This document shows, piece by piece, positions 13,944 through 31,863 of a stretch of 64,000 bases of DNA. The notes under the pieces are model-generated. The model was not told where the DNA came from. It worked only from the letters and a program-made list of their open reading frames with translations, and did not search any database. A program made the translations under genes and the position numbers. The DNA comes from Myxococcales bacterium (lineage in GTDB: Bacteria; Myxococcota; Myxococcia; Myxococcales; Myxococcaceae): contig JADLDB010000117.1 in the NCBI GenBank assembly GCA_020846875.1, forward strand, positions 1-64,000, read 5' to 3'. Positions within the stretch are counted from its first letter, which is position 1; every line of letters starts with the position of its first letter.

Positions 13944-15392
13944 TCACGCCACCGGGCCCTGCTGAGGCCGCTTGTCCCACCAGGTGCCCTTCCAGGTGCC
14001 GAAGTCGAAGCGCTCCTGGCCGGGTCGCGTGAAGAACCAGTAGTTGATGGCGCTGCCCACGACGAAGAAGGCGCCCGCGCCCCAGAAGAAGGCGTTGGCC
14101 GACCCGAAGGTCGAGATGGACGCGCCGATCAGCGACGAGAACAGGAGCGGTCCAAAGGCCGCCCACGCGCCCGTCCACCCGAGCACCTGCGCGCCCTTCT
14201 GGGGGTCGTACGCGAAGATGATCGGGTACTGGCGGAACGTGGCGAAGTTGCCGATGCCAGCCATGAGGAACAGCCACAACATCACCACGACGAACCCGGG
14301 GAACTGCTCCAGGCCCGTCGGCGTCAGGTAGCCGCCAAAGACGAGCGCCAGGCAGCCGATCACCAGCCCCGCTCCGGAGACCTGCGTCCAGACGCTGCCT
14401 CCGAAGCGGTCGGCGAACGGCCCGCCGACGAAGCGCACCACCGAGCCGACGAGCGGCCCCAGGAAGGCGTAGGCGAGCGGATCGGGCGCATCAGGGTAGC
14501 CGCCGTAGATCGACTTGATCATCAGCGGGAAGGCCGCCGCCAGCCCCGAGAAGCTGCCGAAGGTCATGATGTACGTCACGACGCAGAACCACACGTACTT
14601 GTCGCTCACCATGTTCTTCACCATGGCGCCGACCGTCGGCTTCTTGCCGGGCACGCTGCGCAGGAACATCGCGCACAGCACGCTCGCCAGCACCAGGTAC
14701 GGCACGTACCAGAAGGCGGCGTTCTGCAGCCACACGCTCTTCTGCACCGCCCCCTTGACGAAGGTCTGCGGTCCCCCAAAGGCAGACACCAGCGGGAAGC
14801 CGATGATCCACGGCGTGATGAACTGCACGATGCTGACACCCAGGTTGCCCACCCCTGCCTGCAGGCCCAGCGCCGTCCCCTGCAGCCGCTTGGGGAAGAA
14901 CACCGAGGTCGACGGCATGAACGACGAGAAGTCGCCGCCGCCCATCCCGCACAGGAAGGCGATGCTCAGGAAGCTCGAGTACGGCGTCTGCGGGTCCTGC
15001 ACGGCGAACCCCAGCCACAGCATGGGGAAGACCTTCAGGAACGTCGCCGTCGTGACGGTGAGGCGCGTGCCGTAGATGGGGATCAAGAAGGAGTGCACCA
15101 GCCGCAGCAGGCCCCCCGACAAGCCCGGCATGGCCGTCAGCCAGAACAACTGCATGGTGTCGAACTGAAAGCCCACGCTGTTCAGGCGCACCGCCACCGC
15201 GCTGAACACGAACCACGTGGCGAACGAGGCCGTCAGCGAGAAGGTGGTGAGCAGCAGCGTCTGCCAGGCGCGCTTGCTCCCCTCCGCCCTCCAGAAGCGC
15301 CGATCGTCCGGCGCCCAGCCAGGCAGCCAACCCGCAAGCCCACCCACGCGACCGGGGGGCGGATTCGCCCCGGGCCCTGATCCCTGTGCCAT
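13944..15392 (-). CDS. narK2: Nitrate/nitrite transporter, NarK2-like MFS
   Basis: A 482-residue major facilitator protein of the nitrate/nitrite porter family, about 12 membrane helices. The signature FLCGMGGGDFSSFMPSTSVFFPKRLQGTALG, read in pieces (GMGGGDFSSFM, FFPKRLQG, AGVGNLGVSIVQ), corresponds to the GGGNF / FFPK / GLGNMGVS motifs of E. coli NarK and of NarK2 domains, usually nitrate/nitrite antiporters. It would export nitrite made by NarGHI in exchange for nitrate. The ATG at 15392 has a strong GGGAGGTGA site that overlaps the end of narK1, only 3 bases away. The two porters lie in the same order as the halves of the fused NarK1-NarK2 protein of Paracoccus. Last gene of the nar operon. 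Confidence 0.85.
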   Translation of the reverse strand: MAQGSGPGANPPPGRVGGLAGWLPGWAPDDRRFWRAEGSKRAWQTLLLTTFSLTASFATWFVFSAVAVRLNSVGFQFDTMQLFWLTAMPGLSGGLLRLVHSFLIPIYGTRLTVTTATFLKVFPMLWLGFAVQDPQTPYSSFLSIAFLCGMGGGDFSSFMPSTSVFFPKRLQGTALGLQAGVGNLGVSIVQFITPWIIGFPLVSAFGGPQTFVKGAVQKSVWLQNAAFWYVPYLVLASVLCAMFLRSVPGKKPTVGAMVKNMVSDKYVWFCVVTYIMTFGSFSGLAAAFPLMIKSIYGGYPDAPDPLAYAFLGPLVGSVVRFVGGPFADRFGGSVWTQVSGAGLVIGCLALVFGGYLTPTGLEQFPGFVVVMLWLFLMAGIGNFATFRQYPIIFAYDPQKGAQVLGWTGAWAAFGPLLFSSLIGASISTFGSANAFFWGAGAFFVVGSAINYWFFTRPGQERFDFGTWKGTWWDKRPQQGPVA

Positions 15393-15395
15393 CGT

Positions 15396-16913
15396 TCACC
15401 TCCCGCTGCTACCACCCAGCGCCGGAACCCGCTCGATGCTCTGCGCCACCTGTGCGTTCGCCTCCTGCTCGATGAGGCGCACCGTGCGCATCAGCCACAA
15501 CAGGCAGACCACCGAGAGCGCGAACATCAACATCCAGCAACTGGTCCACAGCCCGGTCCAGTCGAGCAGGTAGCCGAACAGGATGGGGCAGACGAAGCCG
15601 CCGAGGCCGCCGATGACGCCGACCATGCCGCCCACCACGCCCACCTGCTCCGGAAAGTAGTTGGGGATGTACTTGTACACCCCGGCCTTGCCGATGCCCC
15701 AGATGATGCCGATGACCATCACCAGGAAGGTGAAGATCCACACGTTGGCTTGAAAGGAGATGCGCGTCACGCCCTTGGCCAGCAGCTCGCGCTTCTGCAC
15801 CTTCTGCCCGACGGTGACGACCGGCTCCTGCCACACCTGTTTGCTGGGGAAGACCTCCACCGACTCGTCGGTCGCCCGGGACTCGGGAGGCCTGGGGGCG
15901 AGCTGGTAGGTGTCGGGCCCGACCGTCACGCTGGTGCCGGTGACGTCCGTGACGACGCCGGGCCGCAGCGCCATGACGCCCCGTCCGGGCGAGTAGCTCT
16001 CGAGCTTCGGGACGATCACCGCGGCGCAGATCAGACACGAGGCGGCGAGCACCCAGAACATCACCCGGCGCGCGCCGAACCTGTCCGACAGCCAGCCGCC
16101 GAGCGCGCGGACGACGCCCGAGGGGAAGCTGAAGATGGACGCGAGGATGCCGGCGGTGACCAGCGGCATGTAGTAGGCGTTGACGAAGTACGGCACGAGC
16201 CACTGCGAGAACGCCACGAAGCAGCCGAACACCAGGAAGTAGTACAGGCCAAAGCGCCACACCCGCGCCGACTTGAGCGGCGCGAGCTGCTGCCTGAGCG
16301 TCAGGTTCGCGCTGGTGGGCTTCCGGTTGGTCGACAGCAGCAGGAACAGAATGCCGATGCCGAGCAGCACCACGGCGTACAGCTTCGGCAGCGTGCGCCA
16401 GCCCTCGAGGTGGGCGCCGCCCTCGGTGAAGCGGTTGAGCAGGGTGGGGGCGAACAGCGTGGTCAGCGACGCGCCTGCGTTGCCGGCGCCGAAGATGCCC
16501 AGCACCGTGCCCTGGTGCTTCTTCGGGTACCACACCGAGGTGAAGGCGATGCCGATGGAGAAGCCCGTACCGGTGAAGCCGAAGCCGAAGCTGCACAGCG
16601 CGAAGCCCCAGAAGGAGTCGACGGTGCTCAACAGGTACATCGGCACCGCCGAGAGCAGCAGCATCGCCGCGAACACCGGCTTGCCGCCGAACCTGTCGGT
16701 GAGCAGCCCGGCGGGCAGTCGGAAGACGGCGCCCGTCAGGACCGGAATGCCCATCAGCCAGCCGATCTCGACCGGCCCCCAGGGGTAGACGAGGTTGTTG
16801 GAGAGGAAGGTGACCAGCACCCCGTTCAGCATCCACGCCGCGAAGCAGGCGGTGAACGCCAGGGTGTTCAGCAGCAGGGCTACGTGGGACTTACCGCTGG
16901 CCGCCTCCTGCAT
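15396..16913 (-). CDS. narK1: Nitrate transporter, NarK1-like MFS with extra periplasmic domain
   Basis: A 505-residue MFS porter. The segment GFTGTGFSIGIAF, then VWYPKKHQGTVLG and FGAGNAGASLTT, matches NarK1-type nitrate/proton symporters. Twelve helices are seen, but between helices 9 and 10 (about residues 303-390) there is a soluble insert of some 85 residues, predicted to face the periplasm. It contains GVVTDVTGTSVTVG and EPVVTVGQKVQKRELLAKGV; the latter resembles the V-x-x-G-x-x-V-x-x-x-x-L-L hairpin of biotinyl/lipoyl-like barrels. Start ATG at 16913 with AGGGAGA upstream. Likely brings nitrate in before nitrite is available for exchange. Confidence 0.82.
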   Translation of the reverse strand: MQEAASGKSHVALLLNTLAFTACFAAWMLNGVLVTFLSNNLVYPWGPVEIGWLMGIPVLTGAVFRLPAGLLTDRFGGKPVFAAMLLLSAVPMYLLSTVDSFWGFALCSFGFGFTGTGFSIGIAFTSVWYPKKHQGTVLGIFGAGNAGASLTTLFAPTLLNRFTEGGAHLEGWRTLPKLYAVVLLGIGILFLLLSTNRKPTSANLTLRQQLAPLKSARVWRFGLYYFLVFGCFVAFSQWLVPYFVNAYYMPLVTAGILASIFSFPSGVVRALGGWLSDRFGARRVMFWVLAASCLICAAVIVPKLESYSPGRGVMALRPGVVTDVTGTSVTVGPDTYQLAPRPPESRATDESVEVFPSKQVWQEPVVTVGQKVQKRELLAKGVTRISFQANVWIFTFLVMVIGIIWGIGKAGVYKYIPNYFPEQVGVVGGMVGVIGGLGGFVCPILFGYLLDWTGLWTSCWMLMFALSVVCLLWLMRTVRLIEQEANAQVAQSIERVPALGGSSGR

Positions 16914-16940: not shown

Positions 16941-17612
16941 TCACGCCCGCCGCGCGCCCATGCCGTCGAGCTCGGCCTTCGAGAGGAGCCGCTGCGCCGA
17001 CGCGAAGACGATGTTGTCTTCCCGGAACATGTGCAGCCGCAACAGCTCGACCAGGTTGTCCATCGCGTGCAGCCCCGCCTTCACGACGGTCAGCGCCGAC
17101 GCCTCGTCGCGGAGCGTCAGCCCCAGCCTGATGAAGTTCAGCGCCACCGCCGCGAGCTGCGCGGCGTCCTGGTGCTCCTTCCGCATGATGTCCACCGGCG
17201 TCGTCACCGCCTCGCCGCCCTTGCTGTGCTCGCCGTCCGCGATCAGCCGGTCGTGGAGCAGGGGGAACAGCACCGCCTCCTCCTCGCGGCTGTGCGGCAC
17301 GAAGTCGCGATCGAACGTCTCGAGGAAGCGCATCACCTCGCGGTCGCTCTCCTCGTTGAAGCCGCCCGTCTTGACCTTCTGCAGGACGGCCTCTACCCGA
17401 TCGAGCGCCTCACCCAGCCGCGCGTGCTCCCCGCCCAGCCGCCCGAGGAACGGGTGGAGCCCCCCCTCGGGGATCGCCTCCACGCCCGGCGGCTGGTAGG
17501 CCTGCGGGGGATCCATCGGAGACAGCGCGCCGTGGGAGGCGCCGTGGTCCGGCTGCCGGTGGACCGGGTCCTCGAGGACGTTCAGCTTCAGCTTCATCAT
17601 GGTCGAGGTCAT
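16941..17612 (-). CDS. Hemerythrin HHE-domain protein of the nar operon
   Basis: A 223-residue cytoplasmic protein with an up-down four-helix hemerythrin-like fold. Candidate diiron ligands are seen in HPFLGRLGGEHARL, HSREEEAVLFPLLHDRL, MRKEHQDA and LLRLHMFREDNIVF. Its ATG overlaps the narI stop codon by one base (TGATG), so it is translated with the nitrate reductase. Related proteins bind oxygen or nitric oxide or repair iron-sulfur clusters damaged by NO (YtfE/RIC family). A role in protecting or sensing around NarGHI is an inference from position. The first 50 residues are low-complexity and not part of the domain. Confidence 0.75.
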   Translation of the reverse strand: MTSTMMKLKLNVLEDPVHRQPDHGASHGALSPMDPPQAYQPPGVEAIPEGGLHPFLGRLGGEHARLGEALDRVEAVLQKVKTGGFNEESDREVMRFLETFDRDFVPHSREEEAVLFPLLHDRLIADGEHSKGGEAVTTPVDIMRKEHQDAAQLAAVALNFIRLGLTLRDEASALTVVKAGLHAMDNLVELLRLHMFREDNIVFASAQRLLSKAELDGMGARRA

Positions 17613-18343
17613 CAGTTGTTCCTCGGGCGGGTTTCGGTCCACGGGGTCCGCGGGTCTCGGATCGCCTTGCGATCCCAGTTCCAGATGACGCGCTGGTACG
17701 GCCGGGCCAGGTAGTGGAGCGGCGCCACCAGGATGTGCACCAGCCGCGTGAAGGGGAAGACGGTGACGATGAGGAAGGCGCCGATGATGTGCAGCTTGAT
17801 CGGCACCGGCAGCGCGCTCACCGCGGTGATGTTGGGGTCGAGCTTGAGGAGCGACCAGAGGTAGGGGGAGAGGTCCGAGGCGAACCACGACGAGCCCCAG
17901 CGGTAGCTGAAGGCCGTCCAGAGCCCGAGGATCACCTGCGCGAGCAGGAGCAGCTCGAGGAAGATGTCCATGCGCGTCGTCACCATCTTGACGCGCACGT
18001 TGGTGAACCGGCGGACCAGGAGCCCACCCAGCCCGAAGAGGATGGTGAGCCCGAAGCTGAACGCCGTGACCTGGAGGATGAGGAGCCGCAGCGGGTCGCC
18101 GTTCCAGAGCAGGATCCCCCGCGGGATGAGGAACGCCGTCAGGTGGCCGAAGCCGACCACCAGGATGCCGATGTGGAAGGGCACCGTGCCCCAGAAGAGC
18201 GACCGCCCCTCGAGGAACTGCGACGACAGCGACGAGACCTTGAAGGCCTTCGAGCGGTACCGCACGATCGTCCCGAGCAGGAAGACGACGATGGCGATGT
18301 ACGGCAGGCCGACGAAGAGGAATAGGTTCAGGTTGGTCATCAT
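17612..18343 (-). CDS. narI: Respiratory nitrate reductase gamma subunit NarI
   Basis: A 243-residue membrane cytochrome b with five helices that oxidises quinol and passes electrons to NarH. The four haem ligands of the E. coli protein (His56, 66, 187, 205) have counterparts at His57, His67, His185 and His203 (FHIGILVVGFGH and KLHIIGAF..RLVH), with the correct spacing. The ATGATG at 18343 overlaps the narJ stop by four bases. Length is slightly above the E. coli protein (225). Confidence 0.95.
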   Translation of the reverse strand: MMTNLNLFLFVGLPYIAIVVFLLGTIVRYRSKAFKVSSLSSQFLEGRSLFWGTVPFHIGILVVGFGHLTAFLIPRGILLWNGDPLRLLILQVTAFSFGLTILFGLGGLLVRRFTNVRVKMVTTRMDIFLELLLLAQVILGLWTAFSYRWGSSWFASDLSPYLWSLLKLDPNITAVSALPVPIKLHIIGAFLIVTVFPFTRLVHILVAPLHYLARPYQRVIWNWDRKAIRDPRTPWTETRPRNN

Positions 18344-19017
18344 GTCCTCTCGGATCTCGCGTGGTCGTCCTCGACCCTCAGCTCGGCGTCGACGGACGCG
18401 GCGAACTTGGAGTCCTCGGCGAACGGCATGGGCTCGGGCAGCGAGAAGTCACGCTGCAGGACCAGCCGCAGGGCCACCAGCGCGTGCCGGTAGGCGGTGC
18501 GCTGCTCCCCTTCCGCCGTGTCGAGGACCGTCTTGTGGTGCTTCTTGTACAGCGCTTCCTTCTTCGCCATGCGGCTCGGCTCGAACTCGTTGATCATCTC
18601 CTGCACCGCCGGCCCGAGCAGCACCTTCACGAACTCGTCGCAGGACTTCGGGTCGAGCCTGGGCAGCAGGCGCAGCACGTTCGTCAGGTGGTCAGCGAGC
18701 TCCAGGCCACAGTCGTTCTTGGCGCGGGTGTGCTCGGCGCTCAGCTTGGCGAGCAGCGCGCCGCGCTTGTAGTCCTCGCCGAACAACGTGTAGCCGATGT
18801 CGAGCGAGGTGATCGGCTGGACGTCGAAGGTGCGCGTGTGCAGCTCGCGCAAGGCGATCGGATCGGCCTTCGGCAGCAGGCGCTCGAACTCGCGCAGCGC
18901 CTGCGCCGCCTTCGGGTGATCAGCGCAGAGCGCGGCGGCCCGCGTCACGTCCGCGTCGAACGAGGGCTCCGGGAAGCCGAAGACCCTGGCCAGCGCTTCG
19001 TACAGTTCGCCGTTCAT
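18340..19017 (-). CDS. narJ: Nitrate reductase molybdenum cofactor assembly chaperone NarJ
   Basis: A 225-residue all-helical chaperone of the NarJ/NarW (TorD-like) family, which binds apo-NarG and allows cofactor insertion. It starts with LYEALARVFGFPEPSF, the usual N-terminal helix, and has LREFERLLP, the DIGYTLFGEDYKRGALL segment (family motif YxxTFDxxxxxSLYLxExxxGDSRRRG in weaker form) and ELADHLTNVLRLLPRL. The ATG at 19017 shares one base with the narH stop (TGATG); a GTG at 19020 is an alternative start with a four-base overlap. Placed between narH and narI as in all nar operons. Confidence 0.92.
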   Translation of the reverse strand: MNGELYEALARVFGFPEPSFDADVTRAAALCADHPKAAQALREFERLLPKADPIALRELHTRTFDVQPITSLDIGYTLFGEDYKRGALLAKLSAEHTRAKNDCGLELADHLTNVLRLLPRLDPKSCDEFVKVLLGPAVQEMINEFEPSRMAKKEALYKKHHKTVLDTAEGEQRTAYRHALVALRLVLQRDFSLPEPMPFAEDSKFAASVDAELRVEDDHARSERT

Positions 19018-20567
19018 CACAGACCTCGCTCGGGCTGCTCGCGGAAACCGAAGCCCGTCGAGCCCTTGACGTCACCGGTGAACTCGATCATCTCCATCGC
19101 CTGCTCGCGGTGCGCCGGCGGAATGACGAAGCGGTCGTTGAACTTCGCGAGCGCCGTCAGGTAGAAGATCGCCTCGGCCGACTCCTGCGTGAGCTTGGTG
19201 TCGCGCAGCGCCTGGGCCATCTTCGCCTCGGTCACGTCGCCCACCGTCTTCCAGCGCCGGTAGATCCGCACCGCCATCAGCTTCTTGAGCTTGTCCGCCA
19301 CCGCAGCGGTGTCGCCCGCGCTGAACATGCTGGCCAGGTACTTGAGCGGGAAGCGCGCCTGCTCGACGGTGCCCCAGAGCTCCTCGGTGGACGTGTCGTA
19401 CAGCCAGTCGTCGGTCCACGTCTTGGCGATGGGGTTCAGCTTGCTCTGCTGCGCCGAGTTGCCCCGCTTCACCGAGGCCATCACCGGCAGGAGCGGCGGC
19501 ACGTACCAGAGCATCGGCAGGGTGCGGAACTCGGGGTGCAGGGGCAGCGCCATGCCCCACTCCTTGATGAACTTGTACACTGGCGACGTCTGCGCGGCCT
19601 TGATGGTCGAGTCCGGCACGCCGTTGGCCTTCGCCGAGGCGATCACCCGGGGATCGAAGGGATCCATCAGCATGTCGAGCTGCCGCTGCACCAGCTCGCT
19701 CGTCTCGGCCGAGGCGGCCGCCTCGATGCGGTCCGCGTCGTAGAGGATCACCCCCAGGTAGCGGATGCGCCCGACGCACGAGTGCATGCACGCCGGCGCG
19801 TAGCCAGCTTCCATTCGCGGGAAGCAGAGGATGCACTTCTCCGACTTGCCGGTGTGCCAGTTGTAATAGGACTTCTTGTAGGGGCACGCCGTCACGCACA
19901 TGCGCCAGGCGCGGCACACCTTCTGGTTGATGAGGACGATGCCGTCCTCGCCGCGCTTGTAGATCGCCCCCGACGGGCAGGACGCCACGCAGGCAGGGTT
20001 CAGGCAGTGGTTGCAGATGCGCGGCAGGTAGAAGAACGCCATGCGCTCGAGCTGGAACATCGCCTCGCGCTCGGCCTCGGTCATCGCTTCGAGGTTGGGA
20101 TCGTTGCGCGCGTAGTCCGGCGAGCCGCTGAGGTCGTCGTCCCAGTTGGGGCCCATCTTCACGTCCATCGGCTCGCCCGTGATGAGCGAGATGGGCCGCG
20201 CCGTGGGCTGGTCGTCCCCCGGGGGCGCCTCGATCAGGTTCAGGTACCGGTACGTGAAGGGCTCGTAGTAGTCCTCCACCGTCGGCATCGACGGGTTGTG
20301 GAAGATGTTCAACAGCCCGCGCTGCTTGCCCGCGCCGCGCAGGTGGATGCGGCCAGACTCGTCCCGGTGCCAGCCGCCCCGGTAGATGTTCTGGTTTTCC
20401 CACTTCTGCGGGTAGCCGGTGCCGGGCTTGGTCTCGACGTTGTTCCACCACTGGTACTCGGCGCCCTTGCGGTCGGTCCAGATGTTCTTGCAAGCGATCG
20501 AGCAGGTGTGACAGCCGATACACTTATCAAGATGAAAGACCATCGAGATCTGCGCTCTGATATCCAT
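19017..20567 (-). CDS. narH: Respiratory nitrate reductase beta subunit NarH
   Basis: A 516-residue iron-sulfur subunit carrying one [3Fe-4S] and three [4Fe-4S] clusters between NarI and NarG. Cysteine groups are Cys16-19-22-26 (CIGCHTCSIAC), ICNHCLNPACVASCP, CRAWRMCVTACP and SEKCILCFPRMEAGYAPACMHSC in pieces. Trp in CRAWRMC replaces a cysteine, as in E. coli NarH, where it defines the 3Fe cluster. Start ATG at 20567 with AGGGTG upstream, 15 bases after narG. Length matches the family (about 510). Confidence 0.97.
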   Translation of the reverse strand: MDIRAQISMVFHLDKCIGCHTCSIACKNIWTDRKGAEYQWWNNVETKPGTGYPQKWENQNIYRGGWHRDESGRIHLRGAGKQRGLLNIFHNPSMPTVEDYYEPFTYRYLNLIEAPPGDDQPTARPISLITGEPMDVKMGPNWDDDLSGSPDYARNDPNLEAMTEAEREAMFQLERMAFFYLPRICNHCLNPACVASCPSGAIYKRGEDGIVLINQKVCRAWRMCVTACPYKKSYYNWHTGKSEKCILCFPRMEAGYAPACMHSCVGRIRYLGVILYDADRIEAAASAETSELVQRQLDMLMDPFDPRVIASAKANGVPDSTIKAAQTSPVYKFIKEWGMALPLHPEFRTLPMLWYVPPLLPVMASVKRGNSAQQSKLNPIAKTWTDDWLYDTSTEELWGTVEQARFPLKYLASMFSAGDTAAVADKLKKLMAVRIYRRWKTVGDVTEAKMAQALRDTKLTQESAEAIFYLTALAKFNDRFVIPPAHREQAMEMIEFTGDVKGSTGFGFREQPERGL

Positions 20568-20582
20568 TGTCTTTCACCCTTC

Positions 20583-23500
20583 CTAGAAGACCACCGAGGT
20601 CATCTTCTTGACGACGACGTGCGTGTCTCGTTGCGGGGCGATGGGGCCCCAGTAGTTGAAGTGGTAGCTGAACTGGCCGTACCCACCGCTGAGGAAGTTC
20701 GGCTTGAGGTGGATGCGGGTGAAGCTGTTGTGGCCGCCGGCGCGCCGGTTGCCGCGCACCTGCGACTTGGGAATGCCGACCGTCCGCTCCGGGACGTGGT
20801 AGACGATGCACACGCCCTTGGGGATGCGTGAGCTCACGCAGGCCCGGGTGCAGTACACGCCGTGGTCGTTGTAGACCTCGACCCAGTCGTTGTCCTGAAT
20901 CCCCAGCGCCGCCGCGTCCGCCTCGCTCATCCAGCACGGCTCGCACCCGCGCGACAGGGTGAGCATGCGGTGGTTTTCCATGTACGTGGAGTGGATGTGC
21001 CACTTCCCGTGGGGCGTCAGGCAGTTGAGCGCGACGGCCTGACCGCTCTTCAGCGTCTCTTTCAGATCGCCGTACGCCTCGGGCCTGGGCGAAGGCTTGT
21101 ACGTCGGCAGGTTCTCGCCGTACGCGAGGTACATCTCGTGATCGAGGTAGAAGTGCTGTCGCCCGGTCAGCGTGCGCCACGGCACCAGCCGGTCATGGTT
21201 GTAGGTGTACGCCGCGTAGGCCCGGCCGTTGTTCATCAGCCCCGACCAGAGCGGCGAGGTGTTGTAGCGCCGCGGCTGCGCCTGGAGTTCCTCGTAGGTG
21301 ATGCGCACGTCCTCGCTGCCGGCGCCGAGGTCCGCGAGCTGCAAGCCCGTCTTCTTCTCCATGTTCCGATAGGCGCGCATGTTGAGCACGCCGTTCGTCA
21401 GGGTGGACAGGTGCAAGAGGACGTTGGCCGCCAGGTTGTCTTCGCGCAGCGACGGGTAGGTCTTCCCGTCCACCGTCTCGGTCGGGAAGTGGTTCGACGC
21501 GATGAGCTGGTCGTACTCGGCCTCGCAGTGGTAGTGGTTGCCGTGGCCGCCGAGGCCGTTCTTGCGCACGCCCTCCCCGAGGCTGATGTATTTCTCGTAG
21601 AGCTTGGTGTAGTCGCGCTCGACCACCCCCAGCTTGTGCATCGTCTTTCCAGGGACGGCGTCGCACTCGCCGCGGTACCAGTCCTTCACCTCGGGCTGGG
21701 TGATCTCGTCAGCCGAGTCGTGCGACAGCGGCGTCGCGACGACGTCCTTCTGGACTCCGGCGAGGTGCTTCTTCGCGCACTCGCTGGTGGCCTTGGCGAG
21801 CAGCTTGAAGATGTCCCAGTCCGACTTCGACTCCCACACCGGCGCCACCGCCTGCGACAGCGGGTGGATGAAGGAGTGCAGGTCCGTGCTGTTGAGGTCG
21901 GCTTTCTCGTACCAAGACGCCGCCGGCAGGACGATGTCTGAGTACAGCGCCGACGAGTCCATGCGGAAGTTGAGGTCGACGATCAGATCCAGCTTCCCGG
22001 TCGGCGCGACCTCGTGCCACTTCACTTCCTTGGTGTGCTCCTCGGAGTCCTTCCCGATCGCGTTGGAGTGGGTGCCGAGGTAGTGCTTGAGGGCGTACTC
22101 GTGCCCCTTCATGCTCCCCATGATGGCGTTGCCGCGCCAGATGTACCAGACGCGGGGGAAGTTCACTTCGTTCTCGGGATCGGCGATCGAGTACTGGAGC
22201 TGCTTGGTCTTCAGCTTCTCGAGCACGTACTGGGTGATCTCCGCGTCGCTCTTCTTGCCGCTCTCCGCGGCCTCGCGCGTCAGCTCGAGCGGGTTCTGCG
22301 CGAACTGCGGGTAGTACGGCATCCACCCCATGCGCACCGACTGGTAGATGGAGTCGGCGGTGTGCTGCGCGGTCTGCTCATTCTTCGGGACCGCGTTGTA
22401 GCGGGAGAACTGGCCGTCGTACCGGTACTGGCAGGTGTTGATGTAGTGCCAGAGCGGCGCCTGCTGGAGGCGGCTGGGGCCCTGCCAGTCCTTGGCGAAG
22501 GCGATCGCCGCCCAGGAGTCGACCGGCGCCAGCTTCTCCTGCCCGACGTAGTGGTTGAGGCCGCCGCCGTTCTTGCCCACGCAGCCGGAGAGCATCAGCG
22601 CCATGGCGCCGGCGCGGTACATCAGGTTGGCGTGGTACCAGTGGTTGATACCGGCGCCGATGATGATCATGCACTTGCCCTGCGTGATCTCGGCGGTGTT
22701 CGCCCACTCGCGCGCGAACTGCAGCACCGTCTTGCTGTCGATCCCGGTGAGGATCTCCTGCCAGGCCGGCGTGTAGGCCGCGTCCTTGTCGCTGTAGTCC
22801 TTCGGGTAGTCCCCCGCGAGCCCGCGGCCCACGCCGTACTGGGCCATGATCAGGTCGTACACCGTCGTCACCGGGATCTTGCCCGACGCCGTCTCGATGT
22901 ACCGGACCGGCACGTCGCGCACCGCCATCTTGTCGAGCCCGAAGTCGGTGAACCCGGTCGGGAGCGTGGCGTCGCGGTTGCCGATGAAGGTGAGGAGCGG
23001 ATCGTACGCCGCCCCGTCCGCGGCGTTCTCGAGCCGCATGTTCCAGTTGCCCTGGGCCTTGTCCCAGCGGTGGCCCACGCTGCCCTTGGGCACCACCAGC
23101 TCGTTGGTCTTCTGGTCGACGTTGAGGAACTTCCAGTCGCCGTTCTCGATGTCCTTCCAGCGGGCGATTTCCTTGGCGCGCACCAGGCGGCCAGGGCGGT
23201 AACGCTCGCCGTCCTTCTCGAGCTTCACCAGGTAGGGGCTGTCCGTGAACTTCTTGACGTAGTCGATGAAGTACGGCGTCGCCTTCTCGTGGTGGAACTC
23301 CTTGAGGATGACGTGGGACACGGCCATCCAGAAGGCGCCGTCGCTGCCGGCGTGCAGCGGGACCCACTGGTCGGCGTACTTGCAGACCTGGCTGAAGTCC
23401 GGTGAGAAGACCACCGCCTTCGTGCCGTTGTGCCGCGCCTCGGCGAAGAAGTGGCAGTCCGGGGTGCGCGTCATGTTGAGGCACGCGCCCATGTCGGCGA

Positions 23501-24200
23501 TGAGCTTCGAGTTGTACCAGTCGGCGCTCTCGCACACGTCGGTCTGCTCGCCCCAGATCTCCGGGAAGGCGGTGGGCAGATCGCAGTACCAGTCGTAGAA
23601 GCTCAGGTTCACGCCGCCGAAGAGCTGCAGGAAGCGCGCGCCGGCCGCGTAGCTCAACATCGACATCGCGGGGATGGGCGAGAAGCCGAAGACGCGATCG
23701 GGGCCGTGCTTCTTGGCCGTGTAGATGTTCGCCGCCGCCATCAGCTCGAGGACCGTGTCCCAGCTCGCGCGGCGAAAGCCGCCCTTGCCGCGGGCCTGCT
23801 GGTACGCCGAGCGCTTCTTGGGATCCTTCTGCAGGTTCTCCCACGCCAGCACCGCGTCACCCTTCGCCGCCGCCTTCTCTCGCTCGAAGGCGTCGATCAG
23901 CGCGCCGCGAATGAGCGGGTACTTGATGCGCAGCGGGCTGTAGAGGTACCAGGAGTACGAGATGCCGCGCTGACACCCGCGGGGCTCGTACGGCGGCAGC
24001 GAGTCCTCGAGCAGCGGGTAGTCGAGCTGCTGCGTCTCCCACACCACGATCCCGTCCTTGACGTGGATCTGCCAGGAGCAGCCCCCTGTGCAGTTGACGC
24101 CGTGGGTGCTCCGCACGATGCGGTCGTGCTGGAAGCGGTTGCGGTAGAACTCCTCCCACTGGCGCGTCTGAGGCGAGATGATGTCCTGGATCCAGCTCAT
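20583..24200 (-). CDS. narG: Respiratory nitrate reductase alpha subunit NarG
   Basis: A 1205-residue catalytic subunit reducing nitrate to nitrite at a Mo-bis-MGD centre. The FS0 [4Fe-4S] ligands appear as His33, Cys37, Cys41 (HGVNCTGGC) and Cys76 (PRGCQRG). The Mo ligand region [13 protein letters not shown] is conserved, with Asp207 equivalent to E. coli Asp222. No twin-arginine signal is present at the N-terminus ([15 protein letters not shown]), so the enzyme is expected to face the cytoplasm. The ATG is preceded by GGAGAGAGGG. It starts 40 bases after the dihaem cytochrome gene. Genes for molybdopterin synthesis are not in this window. Confidence 0.97.
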
Positions 24201-24240: not shown

Positions 24241-25098
24241 TCACTCGCTGTCCAACTGGCGGGCGAACACCTTCTGGTTGACGGGCCCGGCCTTGCGGTT
24301 GCGCCAGAGGAACCCGTAGAGCGCCATCAGCACCAGCGCCCCACCGAGGCCGCCGAACAACAGCTTCATGCTGTCCTGGCGCGGCTGATCGTACAGAGAG
24401 TGGCCGCTGAGGCTCTCCAGGTAGCCAGAGAGCTCCCTGACCTCGGCCTCGGTGAGCGGCTTGCCGGCGAAGGCCTGCTCCATCACCGGGAAGGGGGGGG
24501 CGCTCAGAATGGCCTGCAGCCCGGGGCCCCCGAGGCGCGTGTACGACGTGGTCAACTCCTTGGCCAGGACGCCGCCGCCGATCACCTCGTCGTGCATGAC
24601 GTGGTGGCACGAGCTGCACGCCGGCCCGCCGTTGGCCAGGGCCGCCGTGCCCTGGAAGAGCGCCGCGCCCTTCGCGATCTCTTCAGGCGTCGCCGGCGGG
24701 GCGGCCTCCACCTTGACCTCCTGGGCCGCGCCCCCACGGATGTGGACCAGGATGTCCCGGATCTCGGCTGGCGACAGCGCCACGTCCGGCATCGGGACGT
24801 CGGCGTACTCGTGGAACAGCGCGACGGCGTCGGGATCGCCGGCCTTCACCAGGGCCTGCGACGAGGCGATCCACTTGATGAGCCACGCCTCGGAGCGGCG
24901 GTCACTCACGCCCTTCAAGTCGGGGCCGACGCGCTTGCCACCACCGATGGTGTGACACGCGGCGCACAGCTTCGCGAAGTTCTCCGCCGCGGTGCCGCCC
25001 TGCGCGAGGGCCGTGCCTGGCAGCGCCAGCCCCAGCGCGACGACGGGCAACAGAGCCCAGCGCGCCTTCCAATTCCTCTTCGTCGCCAGCTTCCTCAT
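24241..25098 (-). CDS. narC: Membrane-anchored dihaem cytochrome c, NarC type
   Basis: A 285-residue protein, first gene of the nar operon. After a signal peptide (ending near GTALAQ) there are two c-type haem sites, CAACH and CSSCHH, each in its own domain, with candidate Met ligands in ADVPMPDV and FPVMEQAF. A single hydrophobic helix ([20 protein letters not shown]) near the C-terminus anchors it, leaving a short cytoplasmic tail. A dihaem cytochrome at the head of nar is known in Thermus (NarC of the NarCGHI complex), where it is needed for the reductase and for NADH-linked electron flow; E. coli lacks it. The ATG at 25098 has GAGAGG upstream; an in-frame GTG at 25110 is possible. Confidence 0.85.
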
Positions 25099-25163
25099 GG
25101 TCAGCGCCACCTCTCTGCTCGCTTGGGTGCGACTGCTTCGGGCGCGCAGTAAGGCCGGTGGCT

Positions 25164-25181
25164 CTTACAGCCGGCTTACAG
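25164..25181 (-). promoter_or_regulatory. Paired heptamer operator, candidate SARP site, in the nar promoter
   Basis: On the minus strand CTGTAAG occurs twice, separated by CCGG, an exact 7+4 spacing with 11-bp period, starting 83 and 72 bases before the cytochrome ATG at 25098. SARP activators such as ActII-ORF4 bind tandem heptamers with 11-bp spacing just before the -10 box. About 10 bases downstream CCTTACT may be a -10 element. A further inverted partial copy (GTAAGG on the plus strand, 25149-25154) faces it. The neighbouring gene encodes a SARP-output regulator. The assignment is inferred from spacing and context. The remaining 162-bp gap (25099-25260) has no gene. Confidence 0.55.
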
Positions 25182-25260
25182 ACCGGCAGATCGGGGGGGC
25201 GGGCCGTCGAAGCCCAGTGAAGGCGCGGGTTTCGTGAAGGCGAGGTGGGGCGAGAGGCGG

Positions 25261-27390
25261 TTACGCCCGCAAGAGCCGCGCGTGCCGCGCGCGGATTTCA
25301 TCGCCCGGCTGCGCGTCGAGCTCGTCGGCGAGCCGGCGCTGGTAGCCCTCGTAGGCCGCGAGCGCCTCGCCCACCCTGCCGAGCTGCGCGAGCAGGTCCA
25401 GCTGGGAGAGCAGCAGGTCCTCCCGGAAGGGCGACGCCCGCAGCGCCCTGCGCAGACACGAGAGGCGCTCTTCCGCGCGCTGGGGCTCCACGTACAGGCC
25501 CGCCAGGGTGGCGAGCGCGTCGACGTAGACGTCCCGGAGCTCCGCGCGCTCCGCCTCGCACCACTCGGCGAACGGCTCGTCCTCGAACAGGTCGCCGCCG
25601 TAGAGCTGCACGAGCTGCTCGAAGTGCGCGATGGCCTCGGGCGAGCGCGCGACGGCAGGCCGCTTCGAGGCGAGCGCGCGGAAGCGGAGCAGATCGATGG
25701 AGATGGGCCCGTGCACGTCCAGGTAATAGACCTCGTCCTGGCTGCGCACGAAGGTGGGGCCGCGCTTGCCGCGATCGAGCTCGATGACGGAGCGCAGGTC
25801 GTGGATGATGCCGTGCAGCCGGTTGGCGCCCTGGCGTGGATCGACCTCGGGCCAGAGGTGCTCGATGAGCACCTCGCGGTGGAGCGGCGTGCCCGCCTTG
25901 AGCGCGAGCAGCTTGAGCAGCGTGATCGCCTTGCTGCGGGTGAAGGCCTCGCTGGGGACGAGCTGCCCTCGGCGGAAGATGGCGAACGGCCCCAGGCAGC
26001 GCAGCTCCAGCTCCGGCGGGGCCGGGGCGGGGGTGACGGCCGAGCTCGTCACCGCCTCGGCGGCCCCGCTGGCGCGCGCGCCCTGCCGCCAGACCGCGAT
26101 CTGGTGGGCCATGTTGGCGAGGCTGACCAGGCGCCCCGAGTCTGCGCCCTCGCGGCCGAAGTCGAGGACGGCGAGGCCCTGGAGGCGGCCCTCCGCGACC
26201 AGCGGCAGGCAGCACGGCTTGACGAGCCGACGCGGCAGCCCTTGTCGGCAGAGCGCGGGCCACTCGCGGCGCCCCTGGCTCGCGACGAAGCCGCGCCCCG
26301 ACGCGGCCTGGCAGTCCGCCCAGGAGCCGCTCTCTGCGTGGCTGCAGACCAGCGACGCAGGGCCCGTCGAGACGACCGTGCTCAGGCGGCCGGAGCTGGG
26401 GTCGACGAGCGCCAGCGAGCCGCTCTGCGCGCCGGCGGAGTCCCGCAGCCCCTCGAGTACCTCGCGCGCCCCGCGCCCCCAGTCATCAATCCTGGAGCAC
26501 CAGGTGTCCACGAGCTGTCGCGACGCCCCGAGCTCGGCGCGGACAGCCGTGGCGACCGGCACGGCGGCGCGCTTGAGCAGCTCGAGCACGTGCTTGACCG
26601 GGAAGTCCGCGCGCCGCGACAGCAGTTGAATCGAGCCCAGGGCACCCTGCGCGTCCGGCAGGGGAATGGCGACCACCGAGCGCAGCCCGGCGTCGATGAC
26701 CGGCCGCCGGAGGAAGCGCGGATCGCCCGCCAGGCCGCCCTGGACGCACAGCGGGTCCCCGGTCGCCGCGACGATGCCCGGGTAACCGAGGCCGAGCTCG
26801 AAGCGCGTGCGCGCGCGGAGCGCGTCGCTGTGAGGGCCCGTCCAGACGCACAGCAGGGGGTCGCGCGTCTGGGGCTCGCAGAGGAAGATCTCACCGTCGT
26901 CCGCGCCCGCGGCGCTCACCAGCACCTCGAGCGCGCTGCGCAGCCCGGTGAGCAGCTCGCCCTTCGAGACATGGAAGGCCAGCTCACCGACGACCGCGGC
27001 GATGTCGGGGTGATCGCCAGCGCTCCCCTTCTCGAGGGCTCGCTGCACGACGCCGAGGAGCGCGCCGTTGTCGAAGGGCTTGGTGAGGTAGTCGCAGGCG
27101 CCGGTGCGGATGGCGGCGACGGCAGCGTCGATGGTGCCGTACCCCGTGATGAGGACGACCCTGGTCGTGGGCCAGCGCGCGTGGACGACCTCGAGCAGGG
27201 CCATTCCGCTCATCGCCGGCATGCGGACGTCGCTGAGCACGAGGTCGAAGGCCTCCTGCTCCATCAGGGCGAGCGCCGCCTTGCCGGAGTGGGCGACGCC
27301 TACACGGTGCCCGGCCTCGTCGAGCAGCATGCCGATGCCCCGCGCCATGTCGCGGTTGTCGTCGACCACGAGGACGCGCGCGCTGCTCAC
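25261..27390 (-). CDS. Response regulator with receiver, two GAF-like domains and SARP output
   Basis: A 709-residue regulator. Residues 5-120 are a receiver domain (Asp10-Asp11, phospho-acceptor Asp54 in LSDVRMP, Thr82, Lys104 in LTKPF). About 140-290 and 300-445 look like GAF domains. From residue 461 an OmpR-like winged helix (LELRCLGPFAIF, HREVLIEHLWPEVD) is followed by a BTAD helical repeat domain (566-706, FAEWCEAERAELRDVYVDAL), together a SARP module. SARPs are mainly known from Streptomyces; fusion to a phospho-receiver is uncommon. The GTG start overlaps the stop of the sensor kinase by four bases, so the two form a two-component pair. It faces the nar operon directly, making nar the likely target. 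DnrS of the Thermus nitrate cluster may be a distant counterpart. Confidence 0.85.
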   Translation of the reverse strand: MSSARVLVVDDNRDMARGIGMLLDEAGHRVGVAHSGKAALALMEQEAFDLVLSDVRMPAMSGMALLEVVHARWPTTRVVLITGYGTIDAAVAAIRTGACDYLTKPFDNGALLGVVQRALEKGSAGDHPDIAAVVGELAFHVSKGELLTGLRSALEVLVSAAGADDGEIFLCEPQTRDPLLCVWTGPHSDALRARTRFELGLGYPGIVAATGDPLCVQGGLAGDPRFLRRPVIDAGLRSVVAIPLPDAQGALGSIQLLSRRADFPVKHVLELLKRAAVPVATAVRAELGASRQLVDTWCSRIDDWGRGAREVLEGLRDSAGAQSGSLALVDPSSGRLSTVVSTGPASLVCSHAESGSWADCQAASGRGFVASQGRREWPALCRQGLPRRLVKPCCLPLVAEGRLQGLAVLDFGREGADSGRLVSLANMAHQIAVWRQGARASGAAEAVTSSAVTPAPAPPELELRCLGPFAIFRRGQLVPSEAFTRSKAITLLKLLALKAGTPLHREVLIEHLWPEVDPRQGANRLHGIIHDLRSVIELDRGKRGPTFVRSQDEVYYLDVHGPISIDLLRFRALASKRPAVARSPEAIAHFEQLVQLYGGDLFEDEPFAEWCEAERAELRDVYVDALATLAGLYVEPQRAEERLSCLRRALRASPFREDLLLSQLDLLAQLGRVGEALAAYEGYQRRLADELDAQPGDEIRARHARLLRA

Positions 27391-29135
27391 TGAGCCTCCT
27401 CCAGCAGGACGCCCGTCCCGGGCCCGGTGCCGAGGAGCGCCGGCGCGGGGGCGTTGGCGCCTTCCGGGAGCAGGACGCGGAAGATCGTCCCCGCGTCGGC
27501 GGTGCTCTCGACGTCGATGCGCCCGTGGTGAAACCGGACCACGTTCTCGGCGATCCACAGGCCCAGGCCCGTCCCGCTCTCCTTCGTGGTGTAGAAGGGC
27601 TGGAACACCCGCTCCAGCTCGTCTGGCGCGATGCCGGGGCCGGTGTCGCGCACCTCGATGGCGTGGGACATGCCGTCGGCGCGCCCGGGCGTGGAATAGG
27701 CGCGGATCGCGACGGTCCCCTCGGCGCCCGCCGCCTCGACGGCGTTGACCGCGAGGTTGAGCACGGCCTGGTGCAGCATGCCGGCGTCGGCCATGGCGGC
27801 CAGCTCGTCGGCCTCGCCGGCGTCGGTCGTGACGCGGACATGAGCGCGTAGGGCGAGGGGTCGGACGGCCTCGGCGATCTCACGACACAGCCGCCGCAGG
27901 TTCACCGGCCGCCACTCGGGCCGCTGCGGCCGCGCGAGGTTCAACAGGCCGCCGACGATCCGCCGGCAGGCGTCGGCGTTGCGGTGGATGATTTCGAGGT
28001 TCTCGCGCAGCGGCTCCGGCGGCTGCCGGGCGAGCGCGTGCTCGCTGTACAGGAAGATGACGCCGATCGGGTTGTTGATCTCGTGGGCCACCGCCGCGGC
28101 GAGGCGGCCGACGACGCTCATCTGCTCGTCGTGCATGAGGCGCTTTTCGATCGCCAGCCGCTCGGTGAGGTCGCGCGCCACCATCACGAGGCCGAGCGTC
28201 TCCCCTTCGGCGCTGCGCACCAGCGAGTGTACCGTCTCGAAGGTGCGCCCGCCCCGCTCGAAGGTCACCTTCGTGACGGGCGGGGCGCCGGGCGTCCCCG
28301 CCGAGGCCATGAGCTCTTCGAAGGCGACGGGCGTCGCCCCCTGCTCCTGGGCCGGCCAGAGGGCGCGCCCGCGCTGGTTGCTGAAGAGCACGTTGCCGCG
28401 CGCATCGACGAAGGTGACCGCGTCCCCCATGCAGTCGATGATCGCCTGGAGCCGCTCCCGCTCGGTGTCGACCGCGACCTGCGCGGAGGCGAGCAGGTCC
28501 TTCTCGTGCTGGAGCTCCGCGACCGTGGTCATCAGCTTGCGCCGCCCCCAGTGCAGCCGCTGGGTGAGGAAGCGGGTGAAGGCCGAGAGCGTCACCAGGG
28601 TGAGGACCAGCCCCCCGAGCCCGGCCAGCGCGGTGAGATCGAGCGCGTGGCTGGCGCCGGGGCGCGCCACGCAGTGATGGGCGAGCAGCCCGTGCCCTTC
28701 GGTGGCGAGGGCGGCGACGAGCGCGACGGTCAGGAGGAGGACGCGGGTGGCCCCGCGCCCGGAGAGGACGATGTTGGCGTTGACGACGTGGAGCGCGAAC
28801 AGCGGCAGGAACGGGTTCTCGAGGCCGCCGGCGAAGTGGGCGAAGGCCGCCAGCGCCAGGCAGTCGATGGTGATCTGCGCTCCGAAGGAGCCCAGCCCCG
28901 CGGCCCCGCGCGAGGGGCCCAGCCACGCCAGCGCGGCGTTGTAGGCGGCGAGCGCGCCGGCGACCGCCCAGAGCCACGGCGCCGAGCCGGCCGGCAGCCG
29001 GTCGAACACCGGACCGGCGAGCCCCAGGATGACCCCGACGCCCAACAGGGCGATCCACCGCAGGCTGACCAGCCAGGAGAAGAGCGGCTCGCTCGGATCT
29101 CGCGCGGCCCCGGCACCCGGATCGAGAGAGAACAT
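27387..29135 (-). CDS. Membrane PAS-domain histidine kinase, partner of the SARP regulator
   Basis: A 582-residue sensor. Five or six N-terminal helices (about 20-185) form a membrane sensor without a large periplasmic domain, followed by a helical linker, a PAS domain (about 215-330, IIDCMGDAVTFVDARGNVLF), HisKA with His351 in VAHEINNPIG, and HATPase_c with N box LNLAVNAVEA, DTGPGIAP and GTGLGLWIAE. The AHEINNP phrase and polytopic N-terminus resemble RegB/PrrB-like and ElrB-type redox sensors, whose signal comes from the membrane or quinone pool; this parallel is tentative. The ATG at 29135 has GGAG at 8 bases. Coupled to the response regulator by GTGA. Confidence 0.88.
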   Translation of the reverse strand: MFSLDPGAGAARDPSEPLFSWLVSLRWIALLGVGVILGLAGPVFDRLPAGSAPWLWAVAGALAAYNAALAWLGPSRGAAGLGSFGAQITIDCLALAAFAHFAGGLENPFLPLFALHVVNANIVLSGRGATRVLLLTVALVAALATEGHGLLAHHCVARPGASHALDLTALAGLGGLVLTLVTLSAFTRFLTQRLHWGRRKLMTTVAELQHEKDLLASAQVAVDTERERLQAIIDCMGDAVTFVDARGNVLFSNQRGRALWPAQEQGATPVAFEELMASAGTPGAPPVTKVTFERGGRTFETVHSLVRSAEGETLGLVMVARDLTERLAIEKRLMHDEQMSVVGRLAAAVAHEINNPIGVIFLYSEHALARQPPEPLRENLEIIHRNADACRRIVGGLLNLARPQRPEWRPVNLRRLCREIAEAVRPLALRAHVRVTTDAGEADELAAMADAGMLHQAVLNLAVNAVEAAGAEGTVAIRAYSTPGRADGMSHAIEVRDTGPGIAPDELERVFQPFYTTKESGTGLGLWIAENVVRFHHGRIDVESTADAGTIFRVLLPEGANAPAPALLGTGPGTGVLLEEAQ

Positions 29136-29252
29136 GGGCCTGCTCCAGTTCACGAGGGCGGACGGTACCATGCGCCCGCACCCTACGCAGAAGGCGGGCC
29201 AGCCCTATCGGCGCGGTAGTCCTGGTTTGCCTTGGAGAGGTCTTCGGGCGAT

Positions 29253-29267
29253 GTTGCAAGTTGCAAC
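29253..29267. promoter_or_regulatory. Perfect 15-bp palindrome between divergent sensor-kinase genes
   Basis: GTTGCAA-G-TTGCAAC is an exact inverted repeat with a one-base centre in the 170-bp spacer, 38 bases upstream of the GTG of the NarX-like gene. Such AT-leaning symmetry is rare in this GC-rich DNA and fits a dimeric regulator. It is not a standard FNR (TTGAT-N4-ATCAA) site. Confidence 0.5.
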
Positions 29268-29305
29268 GTCGCGAAACAGGGGAAGGCCAGGCAGAAGGCG
29301 GGACG

Positions 29306-31132
29306 GTGAACGACGAACCGGACGCAAAGCGGCCCTCGACGGCGTGGCGGATCGTCAGCATCTTCCTCACGCTGCGCGGGCGCCTCATCCTGCTCGTCTG
29401 CTTCGCGACGGTGCCCGCGATCTTCTTCATCTTCTTCGTGGCGGCCAGGGAAAGAGAAGCCGCCTCCGCCCGCATGCAGACCGAGGCCCGGCACATGGGC
29501 AGCCTGGCCTCACGGGAGCACGCCCATCAGCTCGAAGGAGGCAGGAGCCTGCTGCGCCGGCTCGCCCAGGTGGCCGCTTGTGACAGCCAGCCGCAGGCAG
29601 CTCAGCCCACCTGCCCGGAGTACCTGCCGGCGCTGCTGAGCGGGTTCCCGCAGTTCGCCAACCTCGGGGTGGCGTCACCTCAAGGGGAAGTCCTCTGCAG
29701 CGCCGCCCCGGTCCACCACCCGGCGAGCCTGCGGACGAACGTCGCCTTCGAGCGCGCCCTCGGCTCCTCAGACGTCGAGACGGGGACCTACGTCGTCGGG
29801 TTCGTCGGCCGGCCGGTGCTCCACCTGGCGCTGGCGATCCGCGATGGAGGCGGGGCGAGCTGCGGGGTGACCTTCGTCGCGGTCGAGCTCGGCTGGCTCG
29901 ACCAGCTGACCCGGCAGGCGAACCTCCCCGCGGACTACTGGCTGCTCATCACCGACCGGACGGGGCAGGTGCTGGCGCGCTCGGGCCCGGCCGAGGGCGC
30001 TCCGGTCGCCGAACCGCCCGCCCTGGCGGAGGTGCTCCATCGCCCGGAGGGAGCCGTCCTCGAGGGCGGCACACCGCCTTCCGCGAGGTACTTCGTGGCC
30101 ACCCCCATGGAGGGCGCGTCGGGGATCTTCGTCGTGGCGGGCTTGCCGTACGAGCGCGTGCGGGCGGCGGCGAACCAGGCCTTCTACCGGACGCTGGTCG
30201 GCCTCGCGCTGGCGACCATCTTCACCATCATCTCGTCCATCCTCGCCGCGGAGTTCTCCGTCTTGCGGGTGCTTCGCGGGCTGACGCGCGCGGTGCGCAA
30301 GATCGGCGCGGGCGATCTGTCGGCGCGGGCGCCGATCCCCGGGAGCCACGGCGAGCTGCGGGAGCTCGCCGTCTCCTTCGCCGCCATGGCCGACGCCCTG
30401 ACCGTGCGGCAGCGTGAAGCGTCAGAGGCGCGGGAGCGCCTGCGCGCCCTCTCGCATCGGCTGCAGGCGGTGCGCGACGAGGAGGCGGGGCGGATCGCCC
30501 GGGAGCTCCACGACGAGCTCGGCCAGCTCCTCACCGGGCTGAAGATGGAGCTGACGCGCGTCCGCCGGGTCAGCAGCGGGGAGGGCCAAAAGGCCGCCGT
30601 GGAGCAGGTGATGGTCGAGATGAGCCGGCAGATCGACGACGCGATCGACTCGGTCCGGCGCCTCTCGTCCGAGCTGCGGCCACCGGTGCTCGACCGGCTC
30701 GGCCTGGCGGCGGCCCTCGACTGGCTCGCGCGGGACTGCGAGGCGAAGGCGGGGCCGGCGGTCGCGCTCCACGTCAAGGACCTCGAAGGGCCGATCGACA
30801 GCCTGATCTCGACGGCCGTCTTCCGCATCGTGCAGGAGGCGCTGACCAACGTCCTCCGGCACGCGGAGGCGAGCGAGGTCACCATTGACGTCGTGGGGAC
30901 CGCGACGACGTTGACGCTCACGATTTCCGACAACGGCAAGGGGATCGACCTGGCCCGGGCCGAGGGGCCGAAGGCCCTGGGCATTCTGGGCATGAGGGAG
31001 CGCGCGCTGCTCGTGGGCGGCTCCTTTCGGGTGCAGGGGGAGCGTGGCCGCGGCACGAGCATTACCGTAGTCGTGCCCAGACAGCCTCCGCCGGTGCACG
31101 TCTCGGAGGCGGGCCAGGAGCGAGCGCCGTGA
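29306..31132 (+). CDS. NarX-like membrane sensor histidine kinase
   Basis: A 608-residue HisKA_3-type kinase. Topology: helix at about 20-42, a periplasmic domain to residue 290 resembling Cache/double-PAS folds, a second helix (LVGLALATIFTIISSIL, about 293-315), then HAMP (VLRGLTRAVRKIGAGDLSAR), a coiled linker, the HisKA_3 motif RIARELHDELGQLLTGL with the phospho-His, and HATPase_c (EALTNVLRHAEA, DNGKGID, LGMRERA). No NarX-type P-box was recognised in the periplasmic part, so nitrate is not proven as the ligand. The GTG at 29306 has AGAAGGCGGG upstream. Overlaps the NarL-like gene by four bases. Confidence 0.88.
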   Translation: MNDEPDAKRPSTAWRIVSIFLTLRGRLILLVCFATVPAIFFIFFVAAREREAASARMQTEARHMGSLASREHAHQLEGGRSLLRRLAQVAACDSQPQAAQPTCPEYLPALLSGFPQFANLGVASPQGEVLCSAAPVHHPASLRTNVAFERALGSSDVETGTYVVGFVGRPVLHLALAIRDGGGASCGVTFVAVELGWLDQLTRQANLPADYWLLITDRTGQVLARSGPAEGAPVAEPPALAEVLHRPEGAVLEGGTPPSARYFVATPMEGASGIFVVAGLPYERVRAAANQAFYRTLVGLALATIFTIISSILAAEFSVLRVLRGLTRAVRKIGAGDLSARAPIPGSHGELRELAVSFAAMADALTVRQREASEARERLRALSHRLQAVRDEEAGRIARELHDELGQLLTGLKMELTRVRRVSSGEGQKAAVEQVMVEMSRQIDDAIDSVRRLSSELRPPVLDRLGLAAALDWLARDCEAKAGPAVALHVKDLEGPIDSLISTAVFRIVQEALTNVLRHAEASEVTIDVVGTATTLTLTISDNGKGIDLARAEGPKALGILGMRERALLVGGSFRVQGERGRGTSITVVVPRQPPPVHVSEAGQERAP

Positions 31133-31761: not shown

Positions 31762-31863
31762 CGCTGTAGGACAGACGCCGACGCCGGGCCTCTGGCCGCT
31801 CCTACGCTGCGGTCGGACGCCGGCTGATACCGGGCGGGCGCGGGCCGGTCCATCGTTGGGACC

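Follow-up and report, generated by a model that had tools for sequence, protein, structure and literature searches.

Repeat element upstream of narC

Two copies of the heptamer CTGTAAG stand between a gene for a response regulator and a nar operon in the 64,000-nucleotide stretch of DNA that we analyzed (positions 1 to 64,000 of contig JADLDB010000117.1 from a Myxococcales bacterium, referred to here as the window), and the question raised by this locus is whether these repeats are the operator of the adjacent regulator, and whether that regulator switches the nar genes on. Our analysis of the element showed that it reads CTGTAAG-CCGG-CTGTAAG on the minus strand (CTGTAAGCCGGCTGTAAG, 25181..25164), which bears out the two perfect heptamers with a 4-bp spacer reported in a preliminary description of the window (25181..25175 and 25170..25164). 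The pair precedes the first nar gene, narC, and occupies the range 66-83 nt ahead of its ATG (25098), where 72-83 bases had been given; an in-frame GTG at 25110 is a possible alternative narC start. The possible -10 described about 10 bases further on is also present, with CCTTACT at 25154..25148 (minus strand), in which the -10-like CTTACT begins exactly 10 nt past heptamer 2. The repeats lie in a gap bounded by the narC ATG and the stop codon of the regulator gene (25261), and a sequence scan identified no sigma-70-like -35/-10 pair in the narC promoter.

A perfect 7-N4-7 repeat of any sequence was found in 1.75% of shuffles of the 152-bp gap, and the window contains 15 perfect repeats of this kind, so that the repeat by itself is only moderately surprising. 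This particular sequence, however, is unique in the 7,062,332-base genome at 0-1 mismatch, and its conservation, described below, decides that the element is real. The features of the locus are collected in Table 1. In all relatives where the front of the nar operon is present, a narC homologue heads it, as in the window. We also observed a gene at 16941-17600, between narI and narK1, that weakly resembles iron-sulfur cluster repair di-iron proteins (TIGR03652, under the cut-off), and this gene is retained in the nar operons of genomes G077, G183, and G195. On the other side of the locus, positions 29261-33045 of the plus strand encode a NarX/NarL-like system and then a SLAC1-family channel, divergent from the kinase-regulator pair and without a GTAAG pair.

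Table 1. Features of the nar locus in the window (positions are those of the whole stretch)
Feature	Position	Strand	Basis or remark
Upstream repeat CTGTAAG	25175..25181	minus	GTAAG core unchanged in all 14 sites
Downstream repeat CTGTAAG, 11 bp past the first	25164..25170	minus	GTAA invariant in 14/14 sites, final G in 13/14
Spacer between heptamers, CCGG (4 bp)		minus	
-10-like hexamer CTTACT	25148..25153	minus	Starts exactly 10 nt past heptamer 2
Predicted transcription start	25138..25142	minus	Inferred from -10 position
Response regulator REC-GAF-GAF-wHTH-BTAD, proposed binder	25261..27390	minus	PF00072, GAF, PF03704, weak Trans_reg_C
Recognition-helix segment GANRLHGIIHDLRSVIE, residues 521-537	25780..25830	minus	Alignment of relatives
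GAF2 cysteines C349, C360, C381 (10/10 aligned), C393 (9/10)	26212..26346	minus	Alignment
Partner histidine kinase, overlaps regulator gene	27387..29171	minus	HisKA + HATPase_c
GGLENPF in kinase, RegB/PrrB-type quinone motif GGxxNPF	28809..28829	minus	Motif conserved in relatives
NarX/NarL-like pair, dCache-HAMP-HisKA_3 kinase + REC-GerE regulator	29261-31761	plus	Domain search
narC-like cytochrome c, first nar operon gene	24241..25098	minus	Pfam PF00034; ATG 25098
narG	20583..24200	minus	TIGR01580, 1447 bits, over its cut-off
narH	19017..20567	minus	Relatives 86-87% identical; name inferred from sequence and position
narJ-like chaperone	18340..19020	minus	Name inferred from sequence and position
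narI	17612..18343	minus	Name inferred from sequence and position
narK1-like transporter	15396..16913	minus	
narK2-like transporter	13944..15392	minus	

A SARP-type response regulator and its partner kinase

The neighboring protein had been read as REC-GAF-GAF-SARP, and our searches confirm these domains, with the BTAD matching PF03704 at 6e-21 and the winged helix matching PF00486 (Trans_reg_C) at 1e-5, slightly below the cut-off. The C-terminal 253 residues align across the whole wHTH+BTAD with EmbR (2fez, 2.6e-9) and with AfsR (8hvr, 2.3e-7), the closest solved relatives of this output domain. Judged by the Pfam BTAD and by these closest structures, the C-terminus of the regulator is a genuine SARP-type output domain, i.e., a winged helix followed by a BTAD. 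The protein does not have the N-terminal winged helix of the classical SARPs, nor does it belong to an actinomycete antibiotic cluster; it has a SARP-type domain but is not a classical SARP, its output domain being C-terminal behind REC-GAF-GAF and its gene linked to nar. Within the recognition helix, H526 and H530 are invariant in all ten aligned regulators, with Tyr at these positions in the Thermus regulator DnrS. An AlphaFold prediction for the output domain, built from two sequences, had low confidence in the DNA-binding wHTH, and we left it out of our reading. The conserved cysteines of the second GAF domain are a candidate Fe-S or other redox centre, and no more than suggestive of oxygen sensitivity.

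Homologues of the partner kinase adjoin the regulator in G077, G195, G478, G267, and G298. In RegB, GGxxNPF serves as the quinone motif (PMC8191878); in the relatives of the window's kinase it reads GGVENPF or GGIDNPF. Against the ActS/PrrB/RegB family NF033792 this kinase scores 115 bits, where the cut-off is 350, which places it outside the family; we regard it as a putative RegB-like sensor and do not assign it to RegB. In G183, the regulator gene follows a moaA-like radical-SAM gene (molybdenum cofactor synthesis; L008:8611-11970), and no homologue of the partner kinase is adjacent to it.

The repeat accompanies the regulator within the phylum

Three of the 195 genomes of the window's phylum contain the regulator, i.e., the window's own, G077, and G183, with the proteins of the latter two 56-58% identical to that of the window. 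Both of these relatives contain a repeat upstream of narC, which is CTGTAAGTCGCGTGTAAG in G077 (L007 16805..16788) and CTGTAAGCGACGTGTAAG in G183 (L009 5391..5374). The regulator gene is located at the opposite end of the nar region in both genomes, and behind moaA in G183; since it is away from narC there, the element is part of the narC promoter rather than of the 3′ end of the regulator gene. The degenerate pattern CTGTAAGNNNNSTGTAAG is present in 5 of the 195 genomes, and three of these matches are the narC promoters of the only three genomes bearing the regulator, with the other two (G064 and G188) in unrelated places (Fisher's exact test, 3/3 vs 2/192, p about 8e-6, the S position of CTGTAAGNNNNSTGTAAG having been chosen after seeing two relatives). 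Examination of these two places (L094 and L097) showed a perfect CTGTAAG-N4-CTGTAAG followed by AT-rich DNA, away from nar, and these pairs are possibly boxes of an OmpR/PhoB-type regulator.

Our survey also demonstrated that 17 genomes of the phylum have narG, 14 of them without the regulator. No GTAAG pair was found near narG in any of these 14, even at one mismatch, in the narG loci and up to 1.5 kb either side; a narC-like gene precedes narG in three of the 14 (G069, G010, and G009).

The repeat in more distant relatives

Most of the candidate loci taken from genome contigs proved to be unrelated receiver domains, and only L011, from a Deltaproteobacteria groundwater MAG (G195) of a phylum group other than that of the window's sample, was a true relative. 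Within the phylum group of G195, full-length regulators are located beside nar genes in G195, G478, G267, G298, and G252, and receiver-less regulators beside nar genes in G205 and G404. The repeat had been expected to persist in relatives sharing the regulator, and it does: GTAAG-N6-GTAAG is present in the same orientation in each of the 8 narC promoters that could be tested in other genomes with the regulator (seven independent, with G478 and G267, near copies whose flanks are 0.78-0.80 identical, counted as one, and with G195 excluded, as its contig ends inside narG). The pairs read CGTAAG-CCCCG-TGTAAG in G478 and G267, CGTAAG-TCGCC-TGTAAG in G298, GGTAAG-CGGGC-CGTAAG in G252, TGTAAG-TGGGG-TGTAAG in G205, and TGTAAG-TGCCC-TGTAAG in G404. 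Two of the regulators from genomes with such repeat-bearing promoters are only 31-34% identical to that of the window.

Five further copies were identified, located before narK2-narK1-kinase-regulator (G478 and G267), before a narK-like gene that follows narI (again in these two genomes), and before SLAC1-kinase-regulator (G298; L109:16553), the last being slightly degenerate, with GTAAT as its second repeat. The copies before the two sets of genes ending in kinase-regulator suggest autoregulation, and the G298 copy suggests that the SLAC1 channel may be part of the regulon; no GTAAG pair was found at the window's own kinase-regulator and SLAC1 promoters. Among the 71 genomes of the class of G205, the regulator was identified in G205 alone. 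It was not found in 396 genomes of the phylum of G490 (Vicinamibacteraceae), a weak search that scored two candidates per genome, or in 36 mixed genomes and records; these included a Thermus plasmid bearing dnrS, so that the latter search was blind to DnrS itself.

Geometry and specificity of the motif

Alignment of the 14 sites demonstrated that GTAAG-N6-GTAA is invariant, and that the last G is kept in 13. After a gap of 10 nt there is a T or C followed by an A in 13 of the 14, the sole exception being the CTTACT of the window, which is the poorest -10 of the set, the others being mostly TANNNN. TA stands at that offset in 10 of the 14 sites; of the remaining offsets between 0 and 23, none has TA in more than one sequence. 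These sites have the layout of a SARP target, i.e., direct repeats with a period of 11 bp (SARP targets may also have 22 bp) close upstream of a -10, and with a fixed distance in all 14, although in our framing the -10 follows the heptamer by 10 nt, vs 8 bp in the SARP rule (PMC10936776). Counting the first base of the window's heptamer as the first repeat position, and assigning -12 to -7 to the -10, would put the start of the second heptamer at -29, as in the afs box.

Between unrelated promoter pairs, identity is 0.83-1.00 in the core vs 0.15-0.60 in the upstream flanks, and a conserved core in flanks that cannot be aligned reflects selection and not recent descent. A search of the ten regulator-bearing whole genomes with GTAAGN6GTAAGN10YA, allowing no mismatch, returned 12 matches, all of them in nar clusters, with a single match for the reversed control.

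Alternative explanations

The alternative that survives best, though we consider it unlikely, is that the regulator binds the repeats but represses the operon, or gates read-through, instead of activating it. The operator overlaps the promoter core, and the regulator gene of the window lies immediately upstream in the same direction, with no terminator-like site seen in the regulator-narC gap, such that read-through may reach nar. However, the lack of a -35/-10 pair is what a promoter dependent on an activator should show, the constant distance to the -10 is in keeping with a contact to polymerase, DnrS acts as an activator (PMC5748679), and both G077 and G183 keep the site without a regulator gene upstream of it. 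On these comparisons, repression would fit less well than activation.

Boxes of the OmpR/PhoB family share the 11-bp layout, being direct repeats of 7 bp spaced by 4 bp, and the repeats might instead be bound by another winged-helix protein of this type, with the SARP-type regulator acting elsewhere. The shape fits, and the two unrelated CTGTAAG pairs of G064 and G188 show that such pairs exist elsewhere in the phylum; but a global regulator would have many sites, whereas the pattern is found only in nar clusters, and once in the window's genome, and it tracks the SARP-type regulator, including in G077 and G183 where the gene is distant from the narC promoter. We rejected a PhoB/OmpR-type box on this nar-only, regulator-linked distribution, and judge it improbable, more so than repression. 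Control of nar by the adjacent NarX/NarL-like system, through NarL heptamers in the gap as in enterobacteria, is less probable again: this pair does lie just beyond the kinase-regulator pair, but nine narC promoter regions contain no TACYNMT heptamer, and the nar regions searched in G077 and G183 contain no NarX/NarL homologue. As the same nine regions also contain no FNR-like site (up to 2 mismatches), NarL or FNR control was rejected. A chance coincidence, for which the frequency of some 7-N4-7 repeat in shuffled gaps might speak, has a negligible probability and was ruled out by the conservation of the pair in every relative that could be tested, amid flanks that do not align, and by its nar-only distribution across whole genomes.

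Proposed mechanism

We conclude that the repeats are very probably the operator through which a DnrS-type (SARP/BTAD) regulator activates the genes of respiratory nitrate reductase. The earlier reading that the adjacent SARP-type regulator uses them in this way is supported, as they are present in 8/8 testable narC promoters of relatives with the regulator and, near narG, in 0/14 genomes without it. From these sequences we infer that the regulator binds, where transcription starts, and that the effect is activation and not repression, and we likewise infer the phosphorylation and the signals of the system. Under anoxia, the membrane kinase, with its RegB quinone motif, would phosphorylate the receiver of the REC-GAF-GAF-SARP regulator, and the GAF2 cysteines may provide a second redox check. 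Two regulator protomers would then occupy the pair of GTAAG repeats as neighbors, offset by one turn of the helix and covering the place of the missing -35, where they would hold sigma region 4, such that RNA polymerase could use the weak -10 starting 10 nt downstream, and narC-GHJI and the genes behind would be switched on. Against this stand the SARP rule of 8 bp vs the 10 nt seen here, the poorest -10 of the set being that of the window, the window's own kinase-regulator promoter without a copy, and the Thermus nar promoter without the motif.

A more specific proposal, which we put forward tentatively and with some doubt, is a dual-input switch, in which a RegB-like quinone-sensing kinase is combined with a redox centre at the GAF2 cysteines, and only the doubly licensed regulator docks sigma on GTAAG-N6-GTAAG. 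If true, sigma adaptation by a SARP domain would control anaerobic respiration outside the actinobacteria, and this would be the first operator known for DnrS-type regulators. In broader terms, a SARP-type operator/activator layout very probably serves nitrate respiration here, together with a DnrS-like regulator that mostly has a receiver and is mostly paired with a kinase. This provides a precise, conserved, and testable predicted operator for the sister group of Thermus DnrS, a predicted regulon (the narC operon, narK, a SLAC1-type channel, and the regulator itself), and candidate specificity residues, and anaerobic respiration would join the antibiotic clusters as a setting in which the SARP promoter layout is used.

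Comparison with known systems

As in RegB/RegA (PrrB/PrrA), the kinase of the window has the GGxxNPF quinone motif, but it is far under the family cut-off, and its regulator is SARP-type and not of the RegA type. NarX/NarL is likewise a two-component control of nar, but with a different output domain and a different operator. The 11-bp repeats of the AfsR system (-40 to -30, then -29 to -19) overlap a -35 of poor quality that is accompanied by a weak -10, and the SARP dimer carries sigma region 4, with SARP repeats in general at a fixed distance from the -10, given as 8 bp (PMC10936776). The locus described here resembles AfsR and the afs box in its wHTH+BTAD output domain, in two 11-bp direct repeats over the -35 region, and in a weak -10 at a fixed spacing; unlike AfsR and other SARPs, it concerns respiratory and not antibiotic genes, its host is non-actinobacterial, the SARP domain is C-terminal behind REC-GAF-GAF, and the repeat is GTAAG.

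The Thermus regulator DnrS (GAF-BTAD), encoded beside narC-GHJIKT, is required for nar transcription, and its oxygen sensitivity is thought to reside in its GAF (PMC5748679, PMC6282519); assaying its binding to DNA did not prove feasible (PMC7694296). Unlike the regulator of the window, DnrS has no receiver domain, and its partner is the CRP-like DnrT and not a kinase. The recognition helix reads V-Y-x3-Y-R-LR in DnrS vs L-H-x3-H-x-LR in all of the motif-bearing set. No GTAAG pair was found in the 95-bp dnrS/narC gap of two Thermus plasmids, and we rejected a transfer of the motif to the Thermus nar promoter on this basis; the difference in the recognition helix agrees with this absence as a correlation only. 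Some of the GAF2 cysteines of the regulator family are common to DnrS. In Thermus thermophilus, dnrST is located upstream of narCGHJIKT, DnrS is a GAF-GAF-BTAD homologue of the window's regulator (27% identity over 487 aa), and the Thermus narG is homologous to that of the window (58%); the window contains, as Thermus does, a GAF-BTAD protein of the DnrS type beside narC-GHJI.
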